From the NCBI GenBank assembly GCA_001770015.1, contig MEQB01000030.1, forward strand, positions 1 to 44,243: a DNA stretch of 44,243 nucleotides, given 5' to 3'. This DNA comes from Bdellovibrionales bacterium RIFOXYC1_FULL_37_79. GTDB lineage: Bacteria > Bdellovibrionota > Bacteriovoracia > Bacteriovoracales > Bacteriovoracaceae. The translations under genes were made by a program, and so were the position numbers. Of this stretch, positions 19,606-42,255 are shown one piece after another (position 1 is the first letter of the stretch; each line of letters begins with the position of its first letter). Under the pieces are notes generated by a model, which was given only the letters and a program-made list of their open reading frames with translations, had not been told where the DNA came from and searched no databases.

Positions 19606-19788
19606 ATGGAAAAGAAAACAGCTACACAAAATAAAAAGGCGAATAACAAAAAAAAATATGTTCGGCCTTCAGTTATTTCAGAACCACTGATGACTTTTGG
19701 GGCAGTTTGCAATGGTACGACTGCCGGGCAAAGAAAAACATCTACGGGTGCTCCTGGTTTTTGTAAAGCCGCTCGCTTGTTATCCTAA
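19606..19788 (+). CDS. RiPP precursor peptide (60 residues), YxxP leader motif, two core Cys, C-terminal Ser
   Basis: AGGAAGG stands 10 bases upstream of the ATG. Residues 1-17 are Lys/Asn/Thr-rich, like a soluble leader. Y18-V-R-P21-S-V matches the YxxP-x-(L/V) motif through which PqqD/B1-type RREs bind leaders in lasso and related RiPPs. The remainder looks like a core: Gly/Thr/Ser-rich, with Cys35 in GAVCNGTTAG and Cys53 in GAPGFCKAARLLS. The peptide ends in Ser60, the position phosphorylated in paeninodin-type precursors by HPr-kinase homologues. The next gene encodes exactly such a kinase and starts 7 bases after this stop. No GG cleavage site is obvious; the leader/core boundary may lie near S25-G32. 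Role as precursor is inferred from size, motif and context. Confidence 0.8.
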   Translation: MEKKTATQNKKANNKKKYVRPSVISEPLMTFGAVCNGTTAGQRKTSTGAPGFCKAARLLS

Positions 19789-19795
19789 AGACTAA

Positions 19796-20701
19796 ATGGA
19801 TTTAATAAGCTTTTCCAATCCTATTCTTGGTCAAAAAAAACTGGATCTGCTGGAAAAAATGCAAACCGATTTATTTTTTAATTATCGCTTGACACTTGAA
19901 TACCACGGAGTACTTGTCAATATTAATGCCTCGAGAGAATCAATTTTAAAATTGGTTTTACACTTGGTGCCCCCCAGTTGGATCATGGATAAATCAAACG
20001 ATATGAATCTAAATTTAAATTTATGTTCGATAAAAGATTTTAATATATCAGGTTTTGATTGGGAAAATGAGGAAAGTCCAGAATGTCGAACTACTCAGGT
20101 AGATAATCAAGAAATGGCCATCCAAAGGGATTTTGCCGGCAAGATGGTTGGAAATACCATTTACGCAATTATAAATGAAGATATGTCCGATGGGTTTTTT
20201 AATGTTTTAAGATGGTTTATGCCCAGGAAGTTGCTGGCCATAAAAAAAACAGTGTTGCATAGCTCGTGCGTGGTAATAAACGAGAAAGCATTTTTTTTTC
20301 TAGGACATTCTGGCCATGGCAAGTCAACTTTGACCACTCTGGCAGATGATAGGTTGGTACTGGGTGATGATATGAATATACTTTATGAGCACCATAACGG
20401 ATATTATGCCCAGGGCGCAGCACTTGGAGGACTTTACAATAATAAATCCCTTCTGAATTTAAATTACCCGGTGGGTGCATTTTATTGGCTATGTAAATCT
20501 GATGAAAATAAAGTTGAAAAGCTAGCATCAGCGGAGGCCTATCGGAAGTTTATTTCTTCTTGTGCTAACGTTTTTTGGAATCAGAAAGATAATCAAGTTG
20601 AAGAGGCCATGATGAAATTATCTCTGGATGTGGTAAGTCGATATCCATTTTATAATTTATATTTTTCACTTAATAAAGGATTTTGGAAGTATGTTAAGTA
20701 G
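19796..20701 (+). CDS. HPr-kinase-like ATPase, candidate peptide C-terminal Ser kinase
   Basis: 301 residues, cytoplasmic. The C-terminal half resembles the P-loop kinase core of HprK: VLHSSCVVI (His155), Walker A GHSGHGKST (170-178) and a Walker-B-like LVLGDDMNIL (D191-D192). The N-terminal ~140 residues have no recognised domain but match the length of HprK-related kinases of RiPP loci. In paeninodin-type lasso clusters such kinases phosphorylate the C-terminal Ser of the precursor; here the precursor also ends in Ser. No HPr or phosphotransferase genes are nearby, which argues against carbon regulation. It follows the precursor by 7 bases and overlaps the PqqD gene by 11, so it is translated as part of the operon. 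The substrate is inferred. Confidence 0.82.
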   Translation: MDLISFSNPILGQKKLDLLEKMQTDLFFNYRLTLEYHGVLVNINASRESILKLVLHLVPPSWIMDKSNDMNLNLNLCSIKDFNISGFDWENEESPECRTTQVDNQEMAIQRDFAGKMVGNTIYAIINEDMSDGFFNVLRWFMPRKLLAIKKTVLHSSCVVINEKAFFFLGHSGHGKSTLTTLADDRLVLGDDMNILYEHHNGYYAQGAALGGLYNNKSLLNLNYPVGAFYWLCKSDENKVEKLASAEAYRKFISSCANVFWNQKDNQVEEAMMKLSLDVVSRYPFYNLYFSLNKGFWKYVK

Positions 20702-20966
20702 TAAGACAAAAATTATTAGAAAAAAAGTACCGTGGCAGGAACTGGATGAAAAAATTGTTATTTTATCTCCAGTGACCAGAATGTCCCATGAATTAAATGA
20801 AACTTCCAGTTGGATCTGGAAGGAAATCCAACAGGAGATTTCTTTTGAAAAGTTGCTTGGTCAATTAATAGAAAATTTTGAGGTGGATGATGTGGTTGCT
20901 CACCAGGATTTGCAGGAGGTGTTAATGATTTTCCAGGAAAAAGGACTGATTGAAATAAATGACTGA
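20691..20966 (+). CDS. PqqD-like RiPP recognition element (leader-binding protein)
   Basis: 91 residues matching the PqqD/coenzyme-PQQ-D family layout. Basic N-terminal strands (KTKIIRKKVPWQEL) precede a beta hairpin DEKIVILSPVTRMSHELNE. The helix TSSWIWKEIQ, in the usual position of the family's N-x-(T/S)-x-x-x-W/I-W motif, and a three-helix winged bundle (ISFEKLLGQLIENFEVDD, then VVAHQDLQEVLMIFQEKGLIEI) follow. Such proteins clamp the precursor leader as an added beta strand and present the core to the radical SAM enzyme. It overlaps the kinase gene at its start (11 bases) and the radical SAM gene at its end (8 bases), so all three are translationally coupled. Start at 20691 fits the normal domain length. 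Confidence 0.85.
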   Translation: MLSSKTKIIRKKVPWQELDEKIVILSPVTRMSHELNETSSWIWKEIQQEISFEKLLGQLIENFEVDDVVAHQDLQEVLMIFQEKGLIEIND

Positions 20967-22434
20967 GCCAAAAATATTGGAAAGTTTTAAAAAAAAAGCC
21001 TACGAAAAAAATATTCCCTTGCAGGCTTCTTTAGAGCTTACTACTAGATGTAATCATGCTTGTAATCATTGTTATGTTGATAAGAATCAGGGCATTGATC
21101 TTTCGTTTGCACAATGGAAAATAATTTTAGAGAAATTGAGGGAGGCGGGAACCCTGTATATTGTTTTTCTTGGTGGAGAGGCCTTGCTCCATCCTGATTT
21201 TTTCAACATACTGGAATACGCTCATCAATTGAGTTTCCATACGTCGGTTATTTCCAACGGATATTTAATCGGTTCACTGGATTATGCTAAAAAATTGGAA
21301 TCTGCCGGATTGGATAATATCACCTTGTCTCTTTATTCCACCAAGGAAAAAACCCATGATGAACTGACCGGGGTGCTGGGGTCTTATCAAAAACTCATGC
21401 GAGCTGTGGAGTATTTAAAGCAGACTAAAATCAGGGTGGGGATCAATACGCTTTTAATGACTAAAAATATCGAGGATTTTTTTTCAATTTATGAGTTTGC
21501 CACTAAGTATAAATTTGATTTTAACAGTGATCCGGTGGTGACTTGTGATTGGTTGGGTAAAAAAAATAACCTTGCTCTAAGGCCCAATGATGAGCAGCTA
21601 AAAAAGCATTTTATGGATAAAGTAAATAAATGGCCAGAAAGCCTGTCGGGGCCAATTCCTTTGCCATTGAATTCTTCAATTTGTAATATGGCCAGATGTA
21701 AATGTGCCGTTAATCATCAAGGGGATTTACATCCCTGTGTGGAAATCCGGGAGGTCTTGGGCAATTTATCAAGAGAGGATTTTCAAGCTATCTGGACGAG
21801 TGATCTGGCCAATAAGTGGAGATTGCTTGAAAACCGAAAGATTAAAAATCTGTTTAATGATGCTACCGATGAATTTTTGGATATTTGTCCGGGTATGGGT
21901 TTAAATGAAATGAATGATCCTTTGATCATTCCAGAATATATGAAAATGTTGGCACAAGTGCAAAAAAATGTTTGGGAGGAGTTTAGGAAAACTTATCGGC
22001 TGCCTTTTTCTGGGAAAAGTATGTTACCGCTTTTTAGAGATAAAGATGAGTTGATTATAAATTTTTCTTATAAAAGTGTGCAAGTTGGAGACATCGTTCT
22101 CGTTCGATCAGGTGGAGAGTTGATTGCGCATAGATTGGTGGAAACAGGGGACAAGACCATTTTAAAAGGGGATCGGTCCGTAAGTGCTGAGGAGATCCAG
22201 CTGGAGGATATTCTAGGCATAGTGGAAGGGTTTATAAGAAATAAAAAAGAATATAAATGGGGAAGCACGGGAATGCTTTTTAAAAAAAATCTATCAGATT
22301 GTTCAAGAAAAACCTTGCGTCACCACGCCCGGATTTACCGGCGATTTTATTTTTTAATTATTTTTGTAATGGTCTGGTTTTCTGTTTTAATTGTTGGTTT
22401 AAATAATCAATTAACCAGTAAAAATCATACTTGA
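20959..22434 (+). CDS. Radical SAM peptide-modifying enzyme fused to an S26/SEC11-type signal peptidase domain and TM anchor
   Basis: 491 residues with three parts. (1) Radical SAM core, residues ~20-230: TTRCNHACNHCYVD gives C31, C35 and C38 for the [4Fe-4S] cluster; LGGEAL has the GGE motif (72-74). (2) An auxiliary-cluster (SPASM/twitch-like) Cys set at C242, C247, C249, C260 and C310; the count is low for full SPASM. (3) A peptidase domain, ~345-425: SGKSMLPLF (Ser354 nucleophile), GDIVLVRSGG, AHRLVE (His391) and ILKGDRS (Asp405), matching the Ser-His-Asp layout of SEC11/SipW signal peptidases rather than the Ser-Lys bacterial one. A hydrophobic helix (FYFLIIFVMVWFSVLIVG, ~463-480) anchors the C-terminus. 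One protein may modify the core and cut the leader. It overlaps the PqqD gene and, convergently, the nucleotidyltransferase. Confidence 0.85.
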   Translation: MTEPKILESFKKKAYEKNIPLQASLELTTRCNHACNHCYVDKNQGIDLSFAQWKIILEKLREAGTLYIVFLGGEALLHPDFFNILEYAHQLSFHTSVISNGYLIGSLDYAKKLESAGLDNITLSLYSTKEKTHDELTGVLGSYQKLMRAVEYLKQTKIRVGINTLLMTKNIEDFFSIYEFATKYKFDFNSDPVVTCDWLGKKNNLALRPNDEQLKKHFMDKVNKWPESLSGPIPLPLNSSICNMARCKCAVNHQGDLHPCVEIREVLGNLSREDFQAIWTSDLANKWRLLENRKIKNLFNDATDEFLDICPGMGLNEMNDPLIIPEYMKMLAQVQKNVWEEFRKTYRLPFSGKSMLPLFRDKDELIINFSYKSVQVGDIVLVRSGGELIAHRLVETGDKTILKGDRSVSAEEIQLEDILGIVEGFIRNKKEYKWGSTGMLFKKNLSDCSRKTLRHHARIYRRFYFLIIFVMVWFSVLIVGLNNQLTSKNHT

Positions 22435-23338
22435 TGGCCGTCCAGAGATGATCTTTGGTGAGGTGTTTAATCAGGATATAACGTATTTTGAGGTTTTGGT
22501 TTTCCATTAGAAATGAAAAAGTCAGCAAATGTTGGTAGATAGTTTTTTTAAACCAGGTTAAGGAAGTTTTCTCATGGGCAATCTGGTATTTAAAAAAATG
22601 TTTTAAAATAAAAAAAACCATGGCATATGAATTTTTAAGGCGATATTTTTCAATTAACTTGAAAAAATAATTCCAATTGATGTTTTGTTCGTTAAGGGAA
22701 ATAAACCGGTAAATATCAATCAGCCAAAAAAATTTTATAAAGGTGTGAGAAAAGGCCACATGTCCGATCATATGAAGCAAATTCATTTCAATATTAAGAA
22801 TTTTATAGGGGGAATAAATCCAAGGTAGCAGATCCGTGGTTACCAGATCAACGTGGAAAAACAGTCTGGAATGCACTTCAATAATTAAAATAGCATCGGG
22901 GGATTGTTTTTCGTAAGTCATTTTGTGACGGTTAGCTTTCCACTTTGAATCTTTAACTGGATGATATCCATGATTGATTAGAATTCTCTCCAAATCAGGT
23001 AAGGAGTTTGGGCCAATAAGTAGATCAAGATCAGACATGTATCTGGAACCTAGATCTGGATAAAGGGTGTGTACCAATGCCATCCCCTTGAGCAGCACAA
23101 CCTGGAGATCTTGAGCTTTGATTTCAGCTTGCCAGGACAATAATTCATTTTCCAACAATCTAATTTTATTCCATCTGGCAACCCATAGACGGTAATAATT
23201 TTTTCTTCTTTCCATTGGAATTATGGCCGGGAAATATTTAAACAGTAGCCCTTCCAGAAAGTGTTCTTCCAGAGTTTGGAAATCTACTTTTTGGATTTCA
23301 TGAACCAGGTTAGTGGGGAGAAAATGATGCATAGTCAT
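22358..23338 (-). CDS. NTP_transf_5-type nucleotidyltransferase (RiPP tailoring candidate)
   Basis: 326 residues of the uncharacterised nucleotidyltransferase family (PF14907) found beside HprK-like kinases in lasso and related RiPP loci. The polymerase-beta-like site is visible: LKGMALVHTLYPDLGSR (97-99), then MSDLDLLIG with Asp103 and Asp105, and a third acidic strand IIEVHSRLF. The C-terminal half is helical and basic. In paeninodin-type loci the partner nucleotidyltransferase is thought to add a group to the phosphorylated C-terminal Ser; here that would follow the upstream kinase step (inference). The ATGA start overlaps the permease stop, and its 3' end overlaps the radical SAM gene by 77 bases in opposite orientation. 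Confidence 0.82.
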   Translation of the reverse strand: MTMHHFLPTNLVHEIQKVDFQTLEEHFLEGLLFKYFPAIIPMERRKNYYRLWVARWNKIRLLENELLSWQAEIKAQDLQVVLLKGMALVHTLYPDLGSRYMSDLDLLIGPNSLPDLERILINHGYHPVKDSKWKANRHKMTYEKQSPDAILIIEVHSRLFFHVDLVTTDLLPWIYSPYKILNIEMNLLHMIGHVAFSHTFIKFFWLIDIYRFISLNEQNINWNYFFKLIEKYRLKNSYAMVFFILKHFFKYQIAHEKTSLTWFKKTIYQHLLTFSFLMENQNLKIRYILIKHLTKDHLWTAIKYDFYWLIDYLNQQLKQKTRPLQK

Positions 23339-24147
23339 GATATATATAAAAAGGGTTGATTGCTTTTTTTATGAAAATGTAGTGCCTGGGAAAAAAGGAA
23401 ATATCCGAGCGTAAAAAGCATGATTGCCCAACCAAGCAGGGCAAGGTTTGCGGCAAGATAATCCTGATAACTCATTTCTTGATGTATTATTTTTCGGGTG
23501 GACTCCAAAAGAAGGTTAAAAGGTGAGACGTAATAAAGGTAATTATTTAAATGGTAAGGTAAGACGGTGGTTGGGAAATATGCCCCAGCTAAAATGGTGG
23601 CGATGGATACAATTTTCATAATCCAAGCTTCTCCTCTTTTTAAAATTAACAAAACTGAGACTGAAATAAGACTTAGCCCTGTGAAAATAAATATGGAAAT
23701 GATTTGCATGAGAGCTGCCAGTATCAGAGAAATAAAAGTGACATCAATCACAAAAATAGTTGCGGCAAGCGAAAGAACTAAAATGACTTTTAAAATTTCA
23801 AATAGACTGGCACTAATTCCCCCGATCATGAAAGAGTATTGGGCAGAACAGGAAAGGAGCAAATGATGGTCAAAGGTCCCCTCTAAAGCGGCATTTTTCA
23901 TATTTCGACCAATGACAGTTATAAAAAAAGCCGGGATGCGCAGAGCTGTTTCCCCAATGACAATAAAGGTGAAGTAGTCGATCGCTTTTCCGGAAAAAAT
24001 TTCCAGGTTGGGTACAAACGCTTTGGCGGTAAACCAGAAAACCCCAAGGATGATCAGTTCATTTATTAAAATGGAAACCATTATGAGCGGGCTTTGGTAA
24101 TAATAATAAAACTCCTTGAGTAGATTCATTTTTATTTGATTAAACAA
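23335..24147 (-). CDS. ABC-2-type permease, probable peptide exporter membrane subunit
   Basis: 270 residues with six hydrophobic segments: PLIMVSILINELIILGVFWF, FTFIVIGETALRIPAFF, ILKVILVLSLAATIFVI, LILAALMQIISIFIFTG, SIATILAGAYFPTTVLPYH and the C-terminal ALLGWAIMLFTLGYFLF. The layout (short cytoplasmic N-terminus, loop ahead of helix 5 with FPTTVLP) fits ABC-2 exporters. It follows the ATPase by an 8-base overlap and precedes the nucleotidyltransferase by a 4-base overlap. No peptidase domain is fused, so leader cleavage must come from elsewhere, consistent with the signal-peptidase domain on the radical SAM protein. Confidence 0.82.
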   Translation of the reverse strand: MFNQIKMNLLKEFYYYYQSPLIMVSILINELIILGVFWFTAKAFVPNLEIFSGKAIDYFTFIVIGETALRIPAFFITVIGRNMKNAALEGTFDHHLLLSCSAQYSFMIGGISASLFEILKVILVLSLAATIFVIDVTFISLILAALMQIISIFIFTGLSLISVSVLLILKRGEAWIMKIVSIATILAGAYFPTTVLPYHLNNYLYYVSPFNLLLESTRKIIHQEMSYQDYLAANLALLGWAIMLFTLGYFLFSQALHFHKKSNQPFLYIS

Positions 24148-24790
24148 GTTGTCCCCCCTTTAAAATGAGTGATCGGGTGGCCAGCGTCTTAACGTCATGT
24201 TCTTGATGGGAGGTAAAAATAATGATTTTTTGCTTGTGGTGACGATTAAGCATCTTGATGGCAAACGTTGCAGTTTCGTGGTCAAAACTGGCCAGTGGTT
24301 CGTCTAAAAGCACCATCTTTGGTTGATGCATGAGTGCCCTAAATAAAAGTAAAATGTTTTTCATTCCAGTGGAGCAAAGATAAAACTTCTTATGGAGGGC
24401 ATTTTTAAATAATTCATTACTTTTCCAGATTTCTATTTCTTCATTTAATAATTGAGTGTTTAAATTATAAAAAGCAGCAAAAAAATAAATATTTTCAAGC
24501 CCAGATAGTTTCGCATAAAATCCAGTGCTTCCAGATGGCATCCAGCCAATCATGTTTCGATATTTTTGGGTGATGATTTCAAGTGGTAGGTTATTCAGTT
24601 TTATACATCCGGAACTGGGAAAGATCAAAGTCGCAAGAATTTTTAGTAGAGTGGTTTTGCCAGAGCCGTTATCACCTTGAATCGAAATAATTTCCTCTTC
24701 CTTAATAGACAGGTTGAGATTATTTAAAATTATCCTCTCTTTGGCATAACTTTTATTTAAATGGTTGATGGTTAAAAAAGAGTCACTCAT
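24140..24790 (-). CDS. ABC transporter ATPase with degenerate signature motif
   Basis: 216 residues. Walker A is GDNGSGKTT (~residue 39-47), Walker B is MVLLDEPL (~156-163) and the switch His is in FTSHQEH. The Q-loop region IGWMPSGS and the LSGLENIYF helix are normal. The signature, usually LSGGQ, reads LCSTGMKNI, so its hydrophobic and Gly core is only partly kept. It pairs with the downstream permease as an export pump for the modified peptide (inference from operon context). It starts 8 bases before the permease gene and 4 bases after the CPBP gene's stop begins (overlap of 4). Confidence 0.85.
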   Translation of the reverse strand: MSDSFLTINHLNKSYAKERIILNNLNLSIKEEEIISIQGDNGSGKTTLLKILATLIFPSSGCIKLNNLPLEIITQKYRNMIGWMPSGSTGFYAKLSGLENIYFFAAFYNLNTQLLNEEIEIWKSNELFKNALHKKFYLCSTGMKNILLLFRALMHQPKMVLLDEPLASFDHETATFAIKMLNRHHKQKIIIFTSHQEHDVKTLATRSLILKGGQLV

Positions 24791-25227
24791 ATATAGTCGT
24801 TGTTAATAAATATAAAATAAATAAAATTATACCAGATATGTAAAATGATCGGTGGTAAAAGGTTATGGAAGCGCTCTCTTAAATAACCCAAAATGATAGA
24901 TGGAAAAAAAACTAGGGTGGCCCACCACGGGGTGTGATAAAAAAAATGCATAACAACAAATAAAATGCTGGTCAATAAATTGGAAAGGGTGATGGATATG
25001 TAATGTTTTTGCATGAAAGGTATTTTAAGCAGTAACCCCTGTAAGATTCCTCGAAATAGACATTCCTCTAAAACGGGGAAAAAAATAATGAGCAAAAAAA
25101 GTGTATGTAAAGAGGGTGGGATGGCACTTTCTTTATGGGAAGAATTAATAAGCGGGCCTAAAAATCCAAAGAATCCGATGAAAAAAAAACCTATGAATAT
25201 TTTGTCTTTAATTAGCCTGGTAATCAT
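24787..25227 (-). CDS. CPBP-family glutamic intramembrane protease
   Basis: 146 residues with four to five membrane segments. The CPBP (Rce1-like) signature is complete: EECLFRG with Glu54-Glu55-x3-Arg59, a conserved His94 in VVMHFF, and HIWYNF (His130, Asn134). These residues activate water for proteolysis inside the membrane. At 146 residues it is small for a typical CPBP and close to the small CPBP sortases (MrtX/MrtJ type) that act on C-terminal sorting signals; the FFPSIILGYLRERF stretch has that look. It is the first gene of the ABC/nucleotidyltransferase operon, so leader processing, self-immunity or sorting of the nearby C25 protease are all possible. Which one cannot be decided from sequence. 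Confidence 0.8.
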   Translation of the reverse strand: MITRLIKDKIFIGFFFIGFFGFLGPLINSSHKESAIPPSLHTLFLLIIFFPVLEECLFRGILQGLLLKIPFMQKHYISITLSNLLTSILFVVMHFFYHTPWWATLVFFPSIILGYLRERFHNLLPPIILHIWYNFIYFIFINNDYI

Positions 25228-38346: not shown

Positions 38347-41300
38347 ATGACTTTAAATAGAATTTTTCAGGAAGCTGTCTTAAATTTTCCAGGCCATGTT
38401 GCAATTGATGTACCCTCTTTGGATAAAAATAAAAACAGATTAAAATTTACTTATAATGAGATTGATAATTTAAGCAATTTTTTATGTCAAAAAATCCATT
38501 CATTTATAAAAAAAGATTCAGTGGTTGCCATCAGTCTTCCCCGAGATTCCCATTATATTTATGTCGCCGAGCTGGCAGTTTTAAAATGTGGGGGAGCTTA
38601 TACTGTAATCGATGCAAGTTTTCCAAAAGCACGAGGTGAATTTATCCTTAATGATTCAAAAGCAGTGCTTTTAATAACCAATAATAATTTATTAAATTTT
38701 AGCCCTGCTAAAACTATCAATATTAATATAATCGATAAACAGAATAATTGCGCAGTGGCTTATAAATCCCCCGAGTGGTTAGACGCTAATTGCCTTGCCT
38801 ATCTTATTTATACCTCAGGCACTACCGGTCATCCTAAAGGAGTTATGATAGAACATAGAAGCGTTACCAATTTGGTTCTATCCGATCGAGATTATTTCAA
38901 ACTTGCACCTAAGGTACGCATCGCTCAAACTTCATCTAATTCTTACGATTCGTCGGTGGAAGAGATATGGCTGGCGTTTGGGTGTGGAGGTACTCTGGTG
39001 GTGGCTAGCGACGATGTCGTCCGTTTAGGACCAGATCTTGGTAAGTGGCTTCAAGATGAGAAAATAAATGTTTTATGTCCTCCACCCACTCTTTTAAGAA
39101 TGGGAGTATCTGGTAATCCCCAAAAAGATTTTCCCGATTTACAATTACTGTATGTGGGAGGTGAGGCACTTCCTTTGGAAATTGTAGAAAAATGGGCACC
39201 TGGAAGATGGTTAGAAAATGGCTACGGACCGACGGAGTGCTCAATTACCATTACTAGAGCAAGAGTTTTTGAAAATTACCCGGTTACTATTGGTAGTCCA
39301 GTAGTGAATAATTTGGCCCATGTCCTTGACAGTAATTTATGTGAAGTGGCGGAAGGATCGGAAGGTGAGTTGTGTATATCTGGAGTGGCACTCGCACGAG
39401 GCTATTTGAATAAACCGGAACTAACTTCTGATAAATTTATTCAACATCCTAAATTGGGAAGAATCTATCGAACGGGAGATTTAGTTTCACGAAATAGTGA
39501 CAATCTTTTGATTTATCATGGCAGGATCGATTCGCAGGTAAAACTGCGTGGATATCGCATTGAACTTGGTGCTATTGAAACAGCTATTAAAGAAAATTCG
39601 CAAGTACAAGATGCCGCTTGTAAGGTTCAAGAAACGCCTAGGGGACAAATTCTGGTGGGTTATATAATTCCCCATGAAGAGGTTGATTTTACCCAGATAA
39701 AAGAAAACCTTTTGAAAAAGCTTCCCAGCTACATGATTCCTAATTATTTTTTGCTTATTAATGAAATGCCGATATCTTTAAGTAGCGGAAAATTAAATCG
39801 AAGTGCTTTACCTGATTATGAAGTAAAGATTACTTCAGCCAACAGAAAAATGGTGCTACCTGAAAGCCAACTTGAGATAGTCATTGCTAATGAAATAAAA
39901 AAAGTTCTTCATATATCCGAAGATATTTCTGTCCATGATAATTTTTTTGAAATTGGTGGAGATTCGTTAAGTGCTGCTATGGTGATTTCGGGACTAAGGT
40001 GTAATGAATTGACTTCGGTGCTTACGGTAAGAGACCTGTATGATGGGCAAACCGTCTTTGAATTATGTAAAAAAGCAATTAAAAGGCAACCACAACAAGT
40101 TAGTGAAGACGTTCTCATTGAAGGAAAACCAATCACGGTGACTATCGTACAGTTGATCTGGATTTTATTCAGAGTTCTTTCAGCTGGAGTCTGTGGTTAT
40201 TTTCTTATGTATCATGTAATGCCATTTTTCTTTTTATCATTTGGGATTTATTTATCGGTAATTATTATTCCAATGCTGCTTTTATTTTTAACGTTTTTAT
40301 ATATTCCTTTTTCGATGTTAACTACGGCCATTTTAAAGCAGGCTTTGATTGGGACCTACAAGGAGGAATCCTATCCAATCTGGGGTAGTATGTATTTAAA
40401 AAATTGGATTGTGACTCAGTCTGTGCGACTGGTTCCTTTAAATTTAGTCGATGGAACTATTTTTAAAAATTTCTTTTTGAAAACCATGGGGGTTAATATT
40501 GGCAAAAATGTGTATTTTCAAAAAGGTGCTAATGTCATTATGGGAGGATGGGATTTACTCACAATTGGGGATAATGTGACTATCGGTCGGGAAGCTTCAG
40601 TCCGTACCATGGATTTTCAATATGGTAAAATAGTTTTTGGTAAGATTGAAATTGGAAATAACTGCACGATAGAAACCAGGGCTTCAATGTCCATTCATTC
40701 TAAAATGCAAGATAATTCAAAACTAACAGGCCTATCAATGCTAGAATCTTTTGGGGTTATTCCCGAAAATGAAGTTTGGGAAGGTGTCCCGGCTACCTAT
40801 AAGGACAAAAATGGTGACCCTCCTCATGATATGGTTAAATGTCAAAAACTATCTTCAATCAAGCATGGATTAATTTTGATTTCACTTCGGATACTTATGT
40901 ATTTGTTCACCTATATACATGTCCCTTTGATTGCAGGACTAGCTATTTGGTATTGGCGCATTGATGCAGCTAAAGTGCTTAGTTGGATATTCGCCAATAG
41001 TTTTTCACTGGAATCTGTCTATGCTTTCTCGGTAATTGCCGTGATATTTTGCTTCATACGTTTAATTTTGCAAGCAATGTTTTGCAGAATACTCGGTCCG
41101 ATAAAACCTGGTTACTACTGTCGCTATGGGACAAAATATATTCACATGTGGTTAAAAGATATGATGGTTGAACTGGCCGGGAATACGCTGAGTGGAACAT
41201 TATTTTGGCCTTATTGGCTTAGACTGGCAGGGATGAAAATTGGAAAAAATTGTGAGATTAGCACTATCATGAATGTAGTTCCAGAATTAGTGAAAATTGA

Positions 41301-42255
41301 TGATGAAGTTTTTTTTGCAGATGGAATTTATTTGGGCGGACCAACCGTTGATCGCCAAATTGTGTATGTGGGCGAAGTTCATCTTTCTAAAAATACATTT
41401 ATAGGCAATCACTCTATCATTCCTTCAGAGAGTAAATTGCCGGAAGATATTTTAATGGGTATTTGTACGGTTGCTGATCACCATAAAATGGAAAAAGGTA
41501 GTTCCTGGTTTGGCCATCCTTCCTTTCGTTTGCCCAATAGAGAGGTTTTAGAGTTGCCCCGAGAATTAACTCATAATCCAGCATGGTATAGATATTTAAC
41601 CAGACTTTTCTGGGAAACTTTGCGTTTTTTTACTCCCGTGGTACCCGCAATAGTGGCCATCATGTGGGTGAGTGTTACATCTTATTATTCGCAAAACCAA
41701 TCTAATTTACAGTTTTTTGGATTAACGATGCACTTAATTACCATTAGTTTTATGTTGTTTATGGTTATGTTGATTTTTGTTATGAAGTGGTGCTTACTGG
41801 GAAAAGTAAAACCAGGAATTCATCCCTTGTGGTCTTGTTGGTGTAGTCGATGGGATTTTCTATATGTTGTTTGGGCCCAATATGCCAGAAAAGTTTTAGC
41901 ATACTTTGAGGGAACCTTGATGCTTGGTTGGTGGCTTAGACTAATGGGAGCAAAAGTTGGCAAAAGAGTATTGCTTGGTAATGGTTTTGCTCAAGTAGTT
42001 GATCCTGATATGCTTCGCTTTGATGATTATGCAACTGTATTATGTATGTTTCAGGCCCATAGTTTTGAAGACCGGATCTTAAAAATAGCTCCTGTGCACA
42101 TTAAAAAAGGAGCAACGGTTGGAAATGCCGCTGTGTTGTTATACGGAGCTGATATTGGAGAAAAAACCAGGGTATATGATAATAGCGTGGTCATGAAAAA
42201 TGAAAGACTTATGCCCGCACACCAATACGTAGGATGCCCCACCAGTTGTATCTAA
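38347..42255 (+). CDS. Pls/PosA-type single-module nonribosomal peptide synthetase, putative homopoly(amino acid) synthase
   Basis: 1302 residues, the usual size of the Pls/PosA family (TIGR02353-type terminal domain). Adenylation domain: YTSGTTGHPKG (155-165), NGYGPTE (291-297), YRTGDL (374-379), GRIDSQVKLRGYRIELG (392-408) and GKLNR with Lys482. Carrier domain: DNFFEIGGDSLSA with Ser540 for phosphopantetheine. From ~590 the chain has six or more membrane helices in pairs, separated by three soluble segments, each with hexapeptide-like turns (TIGDNVTIGREA, KIGKNCEIST, KVGKRVLLGNG). Pls uses these to link residues into epsilon-poly-lysine. No condensation or thioesterase domain is present. 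By eye the pocket line starts D201-S202 and has Glu205, which suggests a basic side chain. AGGA precedes the ATG. Confidence 0.88.
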   Translation: MTLNRIFQEAVLNFPGHVAIDVPSLDKNKNRLKFTYNEIDNLSNFLCQKIHSFIKKDSVVAISLPRDSHYIYVAELAVLKCGGAYTVIDASFPKARGEFILNDSKAVLLITNNNLLNFSPAKTININIIDKQNNCAVAYKSPEWLDANCLAYLIYTSGTTGHPKGVMIEHRSVTNLVLSDRDYFKLAPKVRIAQTSSNSYDSSVEEIWLAFGCGGTLVVASDDVVRLGPDLGKWLQDEKINVLCPPPTLLRMGVSGNPQKDFPDLQLLYVGGEALPLEIVEKWAPGRWLENGYGPTECSITITRARVFENYPVTIGSPVVNNLAHVLDSNLCEVAEGSEGELCISGVALARGYLNKPELTSDKFIQHPKLGRIYRTGDLVSRNSDNLLIYHGRIDSQVKLRGYRIELGAIETAIKENSQVQDAACKVQETPRGQILVGYIIPHEEVDFTQIKENLLKKLPSYMIPNYFLLINEMPISLSSGKLNRSALPDYEVKITSANRKMVLPESQLEIVIANEIKKVLHISEDISVHDNFFEIGGDSLSAAMVISGLRCNELTSVLTVRDLYDGQTVFELCKKAIKRQPQQVSEDVLIEGKPITVTIVQLIWILFRVLSAGVCGYFLMYHVMPFFFLSFGIYLSVIIIPMLLLFLTFLYIPFSMLTTAILKQALIGTYKEESYPIWGSMYLKNWIVTQSVRLVPLNLVDGTIFKNFFLKTMGVNIGKNVYFQKGANVIMGGWDLLTIGDNVTIGREASVRTMDFQYGKIVFGKIEIGNNCTIETRASMSIHSKMQDNSKLTGLSMLESFGVIPENEVWEGVPATYKDKNGDPPHDMVKCQKLSSIKHGLILISLRILMYLFTYIHVPLIAGLAIWYWRIDAAKVLSWIFANSFSLESVYAFSVIAVIFCFIRLILQAMFCRILGPIKPGYYCRYGTKYIHMWLKDMMVELAGNTLSGTLFWPYWLRLAGMKIGKNCEISTIMNVVPELVKIDDEVFFADGIYLGGPTVDRQIVYVGEVHLSKNTFIGNHSIIPSESKLPEDILMGICTVADHHKMEKGSSWFGHPSFRLPNREVLELPRELTHNPAWYRYLTRLFWETLRFFTPVVPAIVAIMWVSVTSYYSQNQSNLQFFGLTMHLITISFMLFMVMLIFVMKWCLLGKVKPGIHPLWSCWCSRWDFLYVVWAQYARKVLAYFEGTLMLGWWLRLMGAKVGKRVLLGNGFAQVVDPDMLRFDDYATVLCMFQAHSFEDRILKIAPVHIKKGATVGNAAVLLYGADIGEKTRVYDNSVVMKNERLMPAHQYVGCPTSCI

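Follow-up and report, generated by a model that had tools for sequence, protein, structure and literature searches.

The nearest described system to the cassette analysed here is that of the linear polyphosphorylated peptides (LPP). According to Popov et al. 2026 (PMC13381572), LPP clusters encode a RiPP recognition element (RRE), an HprK-like kinase, a SipW-type S26 leader peptidase, an NTP transferase and an MsbA-like exporter. In the crystal structure of LppB, N33 and D70 hold the Pro and Tyr of a YxxP leader motif, and the equivalent positions of PbaB1, G42 and Q79, were exchanged by the same authors (PMC13381572). The leader carries Y-16, F-3 and T-1, i.e. Phe at Y+13 and a cut after Y+15, and the peptidase LppS requires S29, H68 and D93, its mutated catalytic set (PMC13381572). 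The kinase LppK phosphorylates residue 3 of the core instead of the terminal one and does not accept Thr, and LppN was inactive in its test host (PMC13381572). LPP were described as restricted to Bacillota, and the role of kinase-modified RiPPs was left open (PMC13381572).

A related phosphorylation is present in lasso peptides, in which PadeK and PsmK phosphorylate the C-terminal Ser and its decoration with a hexose requires PsmN; the lasso kinases share a His-Lys-Asp-Asp set (PMC9266682). The search of the open-access literature revealed no paper on the combination of radical SAM, PqqD and HprK, and no SynChlorMet paper.

The window, which is the whole analysed stretch of 44,243 nucleotides, harbours a short ORF with three genes downstream on the same strand, which encode an HprK-like kinase, a radical-SAM/SPASM protein and, between them, a PqqD-family RRE. 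Genes for a PF14907 nucleotidyltransferase and for an ABC transporter (a probable permease and an ATPase) are convergent to these (Table 1). We read this locus, with a probability of roughly 0.7, as encoding a small exported RiPP whose phosphopeptide pathway is of the same kind as those of LPP and paeninodin, with an added radical-SAM maturase.

Table 1. Features of the precursor ORF and its neighbouring genes (window positions)
Feature	Position	Strand	Remarks
Giant C25 (gingipain/PorU-like) surface protein, 2,483 aa	11794..19245	-	Divergent from precursor
RiPP precursor (very probable), 60 aa	19606..19788	+	Leader 1-33 (predicted), core 34-60; 35-sequence alignment
Leader recognition motif Y18-V-R-P21	19657..19668	+	Invariant in 35; PqqD N36/D73 match LppB N33/D70
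F31-G-A33, predicted leader end, cleavage after A33	19696..19704	+	From LPP-like spacing
C35-C53 with NGxxxGxRK between, candidate radical-SAM or disulfide site	19708..19764	+	Cys pair 35/35
C-terminal Ser60, predicted phosphoacceptor	19783..19785	+	Ser 33/35, Thr 2/35
HprK/PEPCK-fold kinase	19796..20701	+	H155, K176, D192 invariant; AF2 model
PqqD-family RiPP recognition element	20691..20966	+	PF05402 E 3e-12; nearest solved chain 9x90, PbaB1
Radical-SAM/SPASM maturase (~1-330) fused to SipW-type S26 peptidase (~336-430)	20959..22434	+	PF04055 E 1e-23, SPASM, Peptidase_S24
PF14907 nucleotidyltransferase-like enzyme	22358..23338	-	Convergent; PF14907 E 7e-31; R99, D103, D105 invariant in 29
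Probable ABC-2-type permease	23335..24147	-	Hydrophobic; beside ATPase gene in many loci
ABC transporter ATPase	24140..24790	-	PF00005 E 5e-23

The precursor ORF starts with ATG, with AGGAAGGA located some 10 nt before it, and its end and the kinase gene are separated by 7 bp; at most loci the precursor stop and the kinase start are no more than about 30 bp apart. A profile built from five loci detected one copy each in 22 of the 129 genomes of the class; E-values were 8e-21 to 8e-29 in 21 genomes and 2e-6 in one, and a 23rd match (E 0.008) was left out of the count. A wider profile of 22 rows extended the precursor to 35 of the 369 genomes of the phylum. Precursor and cassette are spread over at least seven families, usually with a single precursor copy per genome, and the precursors of relatives are flanked by the same cassette genes in shuffled order. 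The surveyed genomes are partly metagenome-assembled, so that absences in fragmented ones are weak. Scanning contigs with the core pattern returned records of Halobacteriovorax, Bacteriovoracaceae, Bdellovibrionales and Oligoflexia, and nothing beyond such Bdellovibrionota-type records with this strict pattern. Among viral contigs no precursor relative was found, and a contig scan with the radical-SAM fusion protein, a query too poor in conserved words, gave no matches.

The alignment comprised 35 usable sequences from 34 genomes of the phylum, including the copy in the window. Besides the YxxP residues and both cysteines, G41 and K44 are invariant, and G37, R43, L58 and S60 are nearly so. The typical core reads CNGxxxGGRKAxxxxPxFCxxxxLxS. 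The two cysteines are 18 positions apart in the window and in 24 precursors altogether, and 14-19 apart in the remainder; the distance from the last Cys to the C-terminus is seven residues in 31 of the 35. A terminal Ser or Thr in every sequence has p ~1.6e-32 (S+T = 12.3% of residues) if the rows are assumed to be independent, which they are not. The homologues were checked, as had been set beforehand, for loss of the Cys pair or of the terminal Ser, and the idea of the initial annotation survived. Between close precursors, synonymous differences far exceed non-synonymous ones (e.g. pS 0.76 and pN 0.07 in the core), with pN well under pS in leader and core alike, so that purifying selection acts on the reading frame.

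The leader motif Y18xxP21 had been proposed as the site read by PqqD, in agreement with the alignment: the adjacent PqqD protein retains N36 in 35/35 and D73 in 34/35 sequences, together with a conserved L35. On chain 9x90, N36 falls on PbaB1 G42 and D73 on Q79 by position. In 28/35 precursors the leader has Phe or Tyr at Y+13, and 31/35 have Ala at Y+15; since this matches the spacing of LPP leaders, the cut is predicted after A33. The peptidase domain keeps a Ser354/His391/Asp405 triad in 27/27 sequences, with K403 likewise conserved, and a C-terminal hydrophobic helix is predicted at 450-489 of the fusion protein. The model of this protein has pLDDT below 50 for most of 353-463, where the aligned relatives are without the peptidase domain. 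Radical-SAM enzyme and S26 peptidase are encoded by separate genes in most relatives, and two PqqD genes are common where the radical-SAM gene is separate. A fusion of kinase and peptidase is present instead at one locus (L074). Both fusions tie the peptidase to the modifying enzymes. From these residues, reading of the leader by PqqD followed by S26 cleavage appears, as a joint claim, highly likely.

Cysteines C35 and C53 had been put forward as candidates for radical-SAM crosslinks or a disulfide, and both are retained throughout the alignment, with a radical-SAM/SPASM gene in the cassette. The CxxxCxxC motif of the enzyme (C31/C35/C38) is conserved, as are C242 and C260 of the SPASM region; the later SPASM cysteines differ by type and are reduced in the window. 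We consider it fairly probable that this enzyme changes the core. Two SPASM patterns were distinguished. Type I is present in the window and in L060, L066, L075, L108, L110-L112, L114, L116 and L117, and type II in most of the class. Mapped on the kinase tree, the distribution of the types requires four changes, at least two of which are enforced by well-supported branches; the radical-SAM gene has therefore been swapped, or lost and acquired again, and the precursor is stable while its maturase gets replaced. That near-identical precursors are served by two unlike radical-SAM types counts against a pinned-down change of the core. Two non-homologous-looking SPASM variants acting on almost one peptide, as well as natural fusions of a leader peptidase to a radical-SAM enzyme or a kinase, would be useful for enzymology. 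The radical-SAM domain was also considered in the frame of a defence system, which was rejected, as generic viperin-type matches alone were obtained and were judged superfamily similarity.

Several variant loci were observed. Genome G239 carries two precursors (L119:231-404 and L110:3798-3971), a typical one with a type I radical-SAM gene and a divergent one that has its own cassette with a type II gene. In G303 (L121:5600-10196) a distant variant cassette has three consecutive radical-SAM genes together with genes for a PqqD-like protein and a kinase, and its precursor ends in Ser and has three Cys. A small ORF of G022 (L015:3182-3376), located near a radical-SAM gene, possesses a YVKP leader and several Cys and is unmatched by the precursor profile.

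The terminal Ser60 had been likened by the initial annotation to the site phosphorylated by HprK-like kinases, and the neighbouring gene proved to encode a kinase with the His-Lys-Asp-Asp set of the lasso kinases: H155, K176 and D192 are invariant, and D191 is present in the window. Its AF2 model (pLDDT 92.8) has PEP carboxykinases and HPr kinase/phosphatase as best PDB matches, and of the Foldseek comparison the fold class alone was used because the rmsd was large (8-14 Å). Ser60 is the best candidate acceptor because PadeK and PsmK phosphorylate a terminal Ser and PsmN is needed for the hexose there. Phosphorylation of this residue by the kinase is likely; counting against it, LppK acts on core residue 3 and does not accept Thr, in which two of the precursors end. 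The inactivity of LppN in its test host likewise counts against the model. We infer from the shared family name that the PF14907 enzyme is equivalent to the PsmN/LppN-type 'NTP transferase'. A Pfam search of the probable permease gave no match.

Next to the transporter genes, positions 24787-25227 (-) encode a CPBP glutamic intramembrane protease that matches MrtJ of the JDVT-CTERM system (95 bits, curated cut-off 75 bits). MrtJ was rejected as a conserved part of the cassette, as it was above the cut-off in its own genome only, of 129 in the class. Further along the window, an ORF of 1,302 aa at 38347-42255 (+) looks by eye like an adenylation domain joined to a carrier domain, with membrane and hexapeptide-repeat parts behind them.

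The giant protein, a candidate partner that the initial annotation had missed, matches Peptidase_C25 (E 7e-75) and Propeptide_C25 (E 4e-15) and carries the His (HYIGHG) and Cys (MNC) motifs, with a putative signal peptide in the window copy. The PorU models NF033707 and NF052324 match over about 560-710 residues, below both curated cut-offs (212.6 against 420 bits and 174 against 450 bits, respectively), and with the former score the protein failed the test for a PorU T9SS sortase. Across the phylum the giants have 2,000-3,500 aa, with an N-terminal part of 1,500-2,500 residues. The tail of the window giant, NGGGCTIYKGNRP, aligns with positions 1-13 of the JDVT-CTERM model, though below the cut-off (11 against 27 bits). 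In G007, contig C9 (L137:7186-19900) encodes two tandem giant C25 proteins and contig C1 a third, full-length giant, and a single precursor was found.

Giant homologues were counted when longer than 2,000 aa with E <1e-140 over a 1,133-aa query, the fragment of G070 being excepted. In the phylum, 27 genomes have both precursor and giant, 8 the precursor only, 4 the giant only and 330 neither; the precursor is thus present in 27/31 giant-positive genomes (Fisher p 1e-29, uncorrected for kinship). Better evidence for co-occurrence than this p-value is given by contrasts within genera. G103 alone of the 14 genomes of genus g15 has either of the two, and it has both; in genus g3 two genomes (G079, G086) have both and three (G002, G049, G068) neither. 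Among the precursor-only genomes, a cut-off giant adjoins the precursor in G085, the precursor lies near a contig end in G091, G236 and G240, and G034, G092, G217 and G303 have divergent precursors. Among the giant-only genomes, the kinase of G073 is at a contig edge, G070 has a fragment, and in G230 and G256 the precursor seems truly absent. The giant gene immediately precedes the precursor on the same strand, with a gap mostly below 20 bp, at nine loci that look operon-like (L062, L065, L067, L069, L072, L076, L077, L078 and L111). It is divergent from the precursor in the window and in L063, L064, L071 and L074, and, judged by N-terminal parts, in L059 and L061.

Two readings of the ORF itself were weighed against that of an LPP/paeninodin-kind product. 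A chance ORF, or a small regulatory protein that has no leader and no relation to the enzymes, would fit a short frame in AT-rich DNA with no database family; it is refuted by conserved homologues in 35 genomes, at the same place and under purifying selection, and its probability is negligible. That the ORF encodes a RiPP precursor is very probable. The initial annotation had further likened the C-terminus to paeninodin-type precursors, and a lasso precursor with its cyclase encoded elsewhere would share with paeninodin and pseudomycoidin the YxxP leader, terminal Ser, HprK-like kinase, RRE and PF14907 enzyme. Yet neither an Asn-synthetase-like cyclase nor a peptidase of the B2 transglutaminase type is encoded in the window. 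The one PF00733 protein of its own genome (G000) lies on another contig and has full AsnB length (636 aa frame), and G200, a 100% complete genome with precursor and giant, is without any PF00733. The predicted core also has no invariant Asp or Glu acceptor at position 7-9. With no cyclase, the lasso peptide is rejected as very improbable, and the paeninodin-type label does not hold.

The function of an exported, phosphorylated RiPP can be read in different ways. The co-occurrence suggests that peptide and giant work together, and we give about even odds that the peptide acts directly with the giant. How the giant relates to the peptide is the least secure part of the model. Against a joint action, the giant of the window is divergent and outside the operon, eight precursor-positive genomes have no detected giant, and G230 and G256 have a giant alone. 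PorU is a sortase-like enzyme in type IX secretion, and on this ground a transpeptidase reading of the giant is put forward, as the boldest case only. Only tentatively do we propose the modified and phosphorylated or phosphoglycosylated peptide as a dedicated partner of the giant, i.e. its anchor, cofactor or transpeptidase substrate. If this is true, the C25 enzyme would join the peptide, with or without a glycan, to itself or to other surface proteins, and the RiPP would serve a protein rather than be a free natural product. Less probable is a glycan anchor or primer, in which a phosphorylated terminal Ser bears a sugar connecting to surface polysaccharide, with the giant as one among several proteins of the surface. 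It would agree with the hexose placed by the PF14907 homologue PsmN, with glycosyltransferase genes adjoining the cassette in L060, L065, L068, L108 and L110, and with LPP and paeninodin clusters located in capsule loci; however, no clear glycosyltransferase accompanies the cassette in the window, and the giant tracks the precursor better than any tested glycosyltransferase family. Rather more doubtful is a secreted antimicrobial or predation RiPP, with the giant protease merely a co-secreted or co-regulated weapon. Its hosts are related to predatory Bacteriovorax and Halobacteriovorax, and small exported peptides with two Cys are typical of bacteriocins, but the core is conserved across families, usually with one copy per genome, whereas most bacteriocins diversify. 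An immunity gene was not recognised, and many predatory relatives (107/129 genomes in the class) lack the precursor.

Returning to the phosphopeptide pathway with a radical-SAM maturase, we infer the following chemistry and function. PqqD would grip the leader at Y18/P21 and present the peptide, and the radical-SAM/SPASM enzyme would modify the Cys35...NGxxxGGRK...Cys53 core. The HprK-like kinase would phosphorylate the terminal hydroxyl of Ser60, and the PF14907 enzyme might put a sugar or nucleotide on this phosphate. Cleavage after Ala33 by the S26 Ser-His-Asp peptidase would release a 27-residue peptide, which the ABC exporter would carry out of the cell. Outside, the peptide may work with or on the giant C25 protein, for example as an anchor, a ligand or a regulator of its activity.

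Similar to paeninodin and pseudomycoidin systems, the window encodes an HprK-like kinase, a C-terminal Ser, an RRE and a PF14907-type nucleotidyltransferase. The precursor has YxxP where Bacillota paeninodins have WxxP, and the window system differs in possessing a Cys pair and a radical-SAM enzyme and in lacking a macrolactam cyclase and a B2 peptidase. With sactipeptides and ranthipeptides it has in common a radical-SAM/SPASM maturase with CxxxCxxC and auxiliary-cluster Cys. SynChlorMet/GeoRSP systems (NCBIfam) likewise combine ScmC kinase-like, PqqD-like and radical-SAM/SPASM proteins; the window proteins scored far under the curated cut-offs (ScmC 18/125, GeoRSP rSAM 109/400 and ScmD 16/100 bits), the cassettes being compared by profile scores. 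The giant shares the C25 catalytic domain and propeptide with PorU and gingipains, and in the window as in its homologues its C-terminus is formed by GGGC followed by a hydrophobic segment and basic residues, where these have the T9SS signal.

The likeness to LPP is the closest, since the whole LPP core set is present in the window, although the exporter is another ABC type, a two-gene transporter instead of an MsbA-like one. The PqqD residues N36/D73 and the LppB residues N33/D70 are 37 positions apart in both proteins, the S26 domain has Ser, His and Asp in the same order as LppS, and YxxP and Phe at Y+13 are common to both leaders. Polysaccharide genes are frequent neighbours of both types of cassette. 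Nonetheless, the LPP leader consensus YxxPxVLxHQxIxFETxxS is not matched: HQ, ET and the Ser at core position 3 are absent, and Ala replaces Thr at -1. Where LPP are polyphosphorylated at Ser3 of the core, the window precursor has Asn36, and its conserved hydroxyl is that of the last residue. A radical-SAM/SPASM maturase is added. The locus thus represents an LPP-related cassette in another phylum, linked to a giant C25 protein, and its repeated co-gain with this protease offers a first testable hypothesis for the job of the product. LPP cores are highly variable, whereas the core found here is strongly conserved with its Cys pair; therefore selection probably holds its product to a single definite task.
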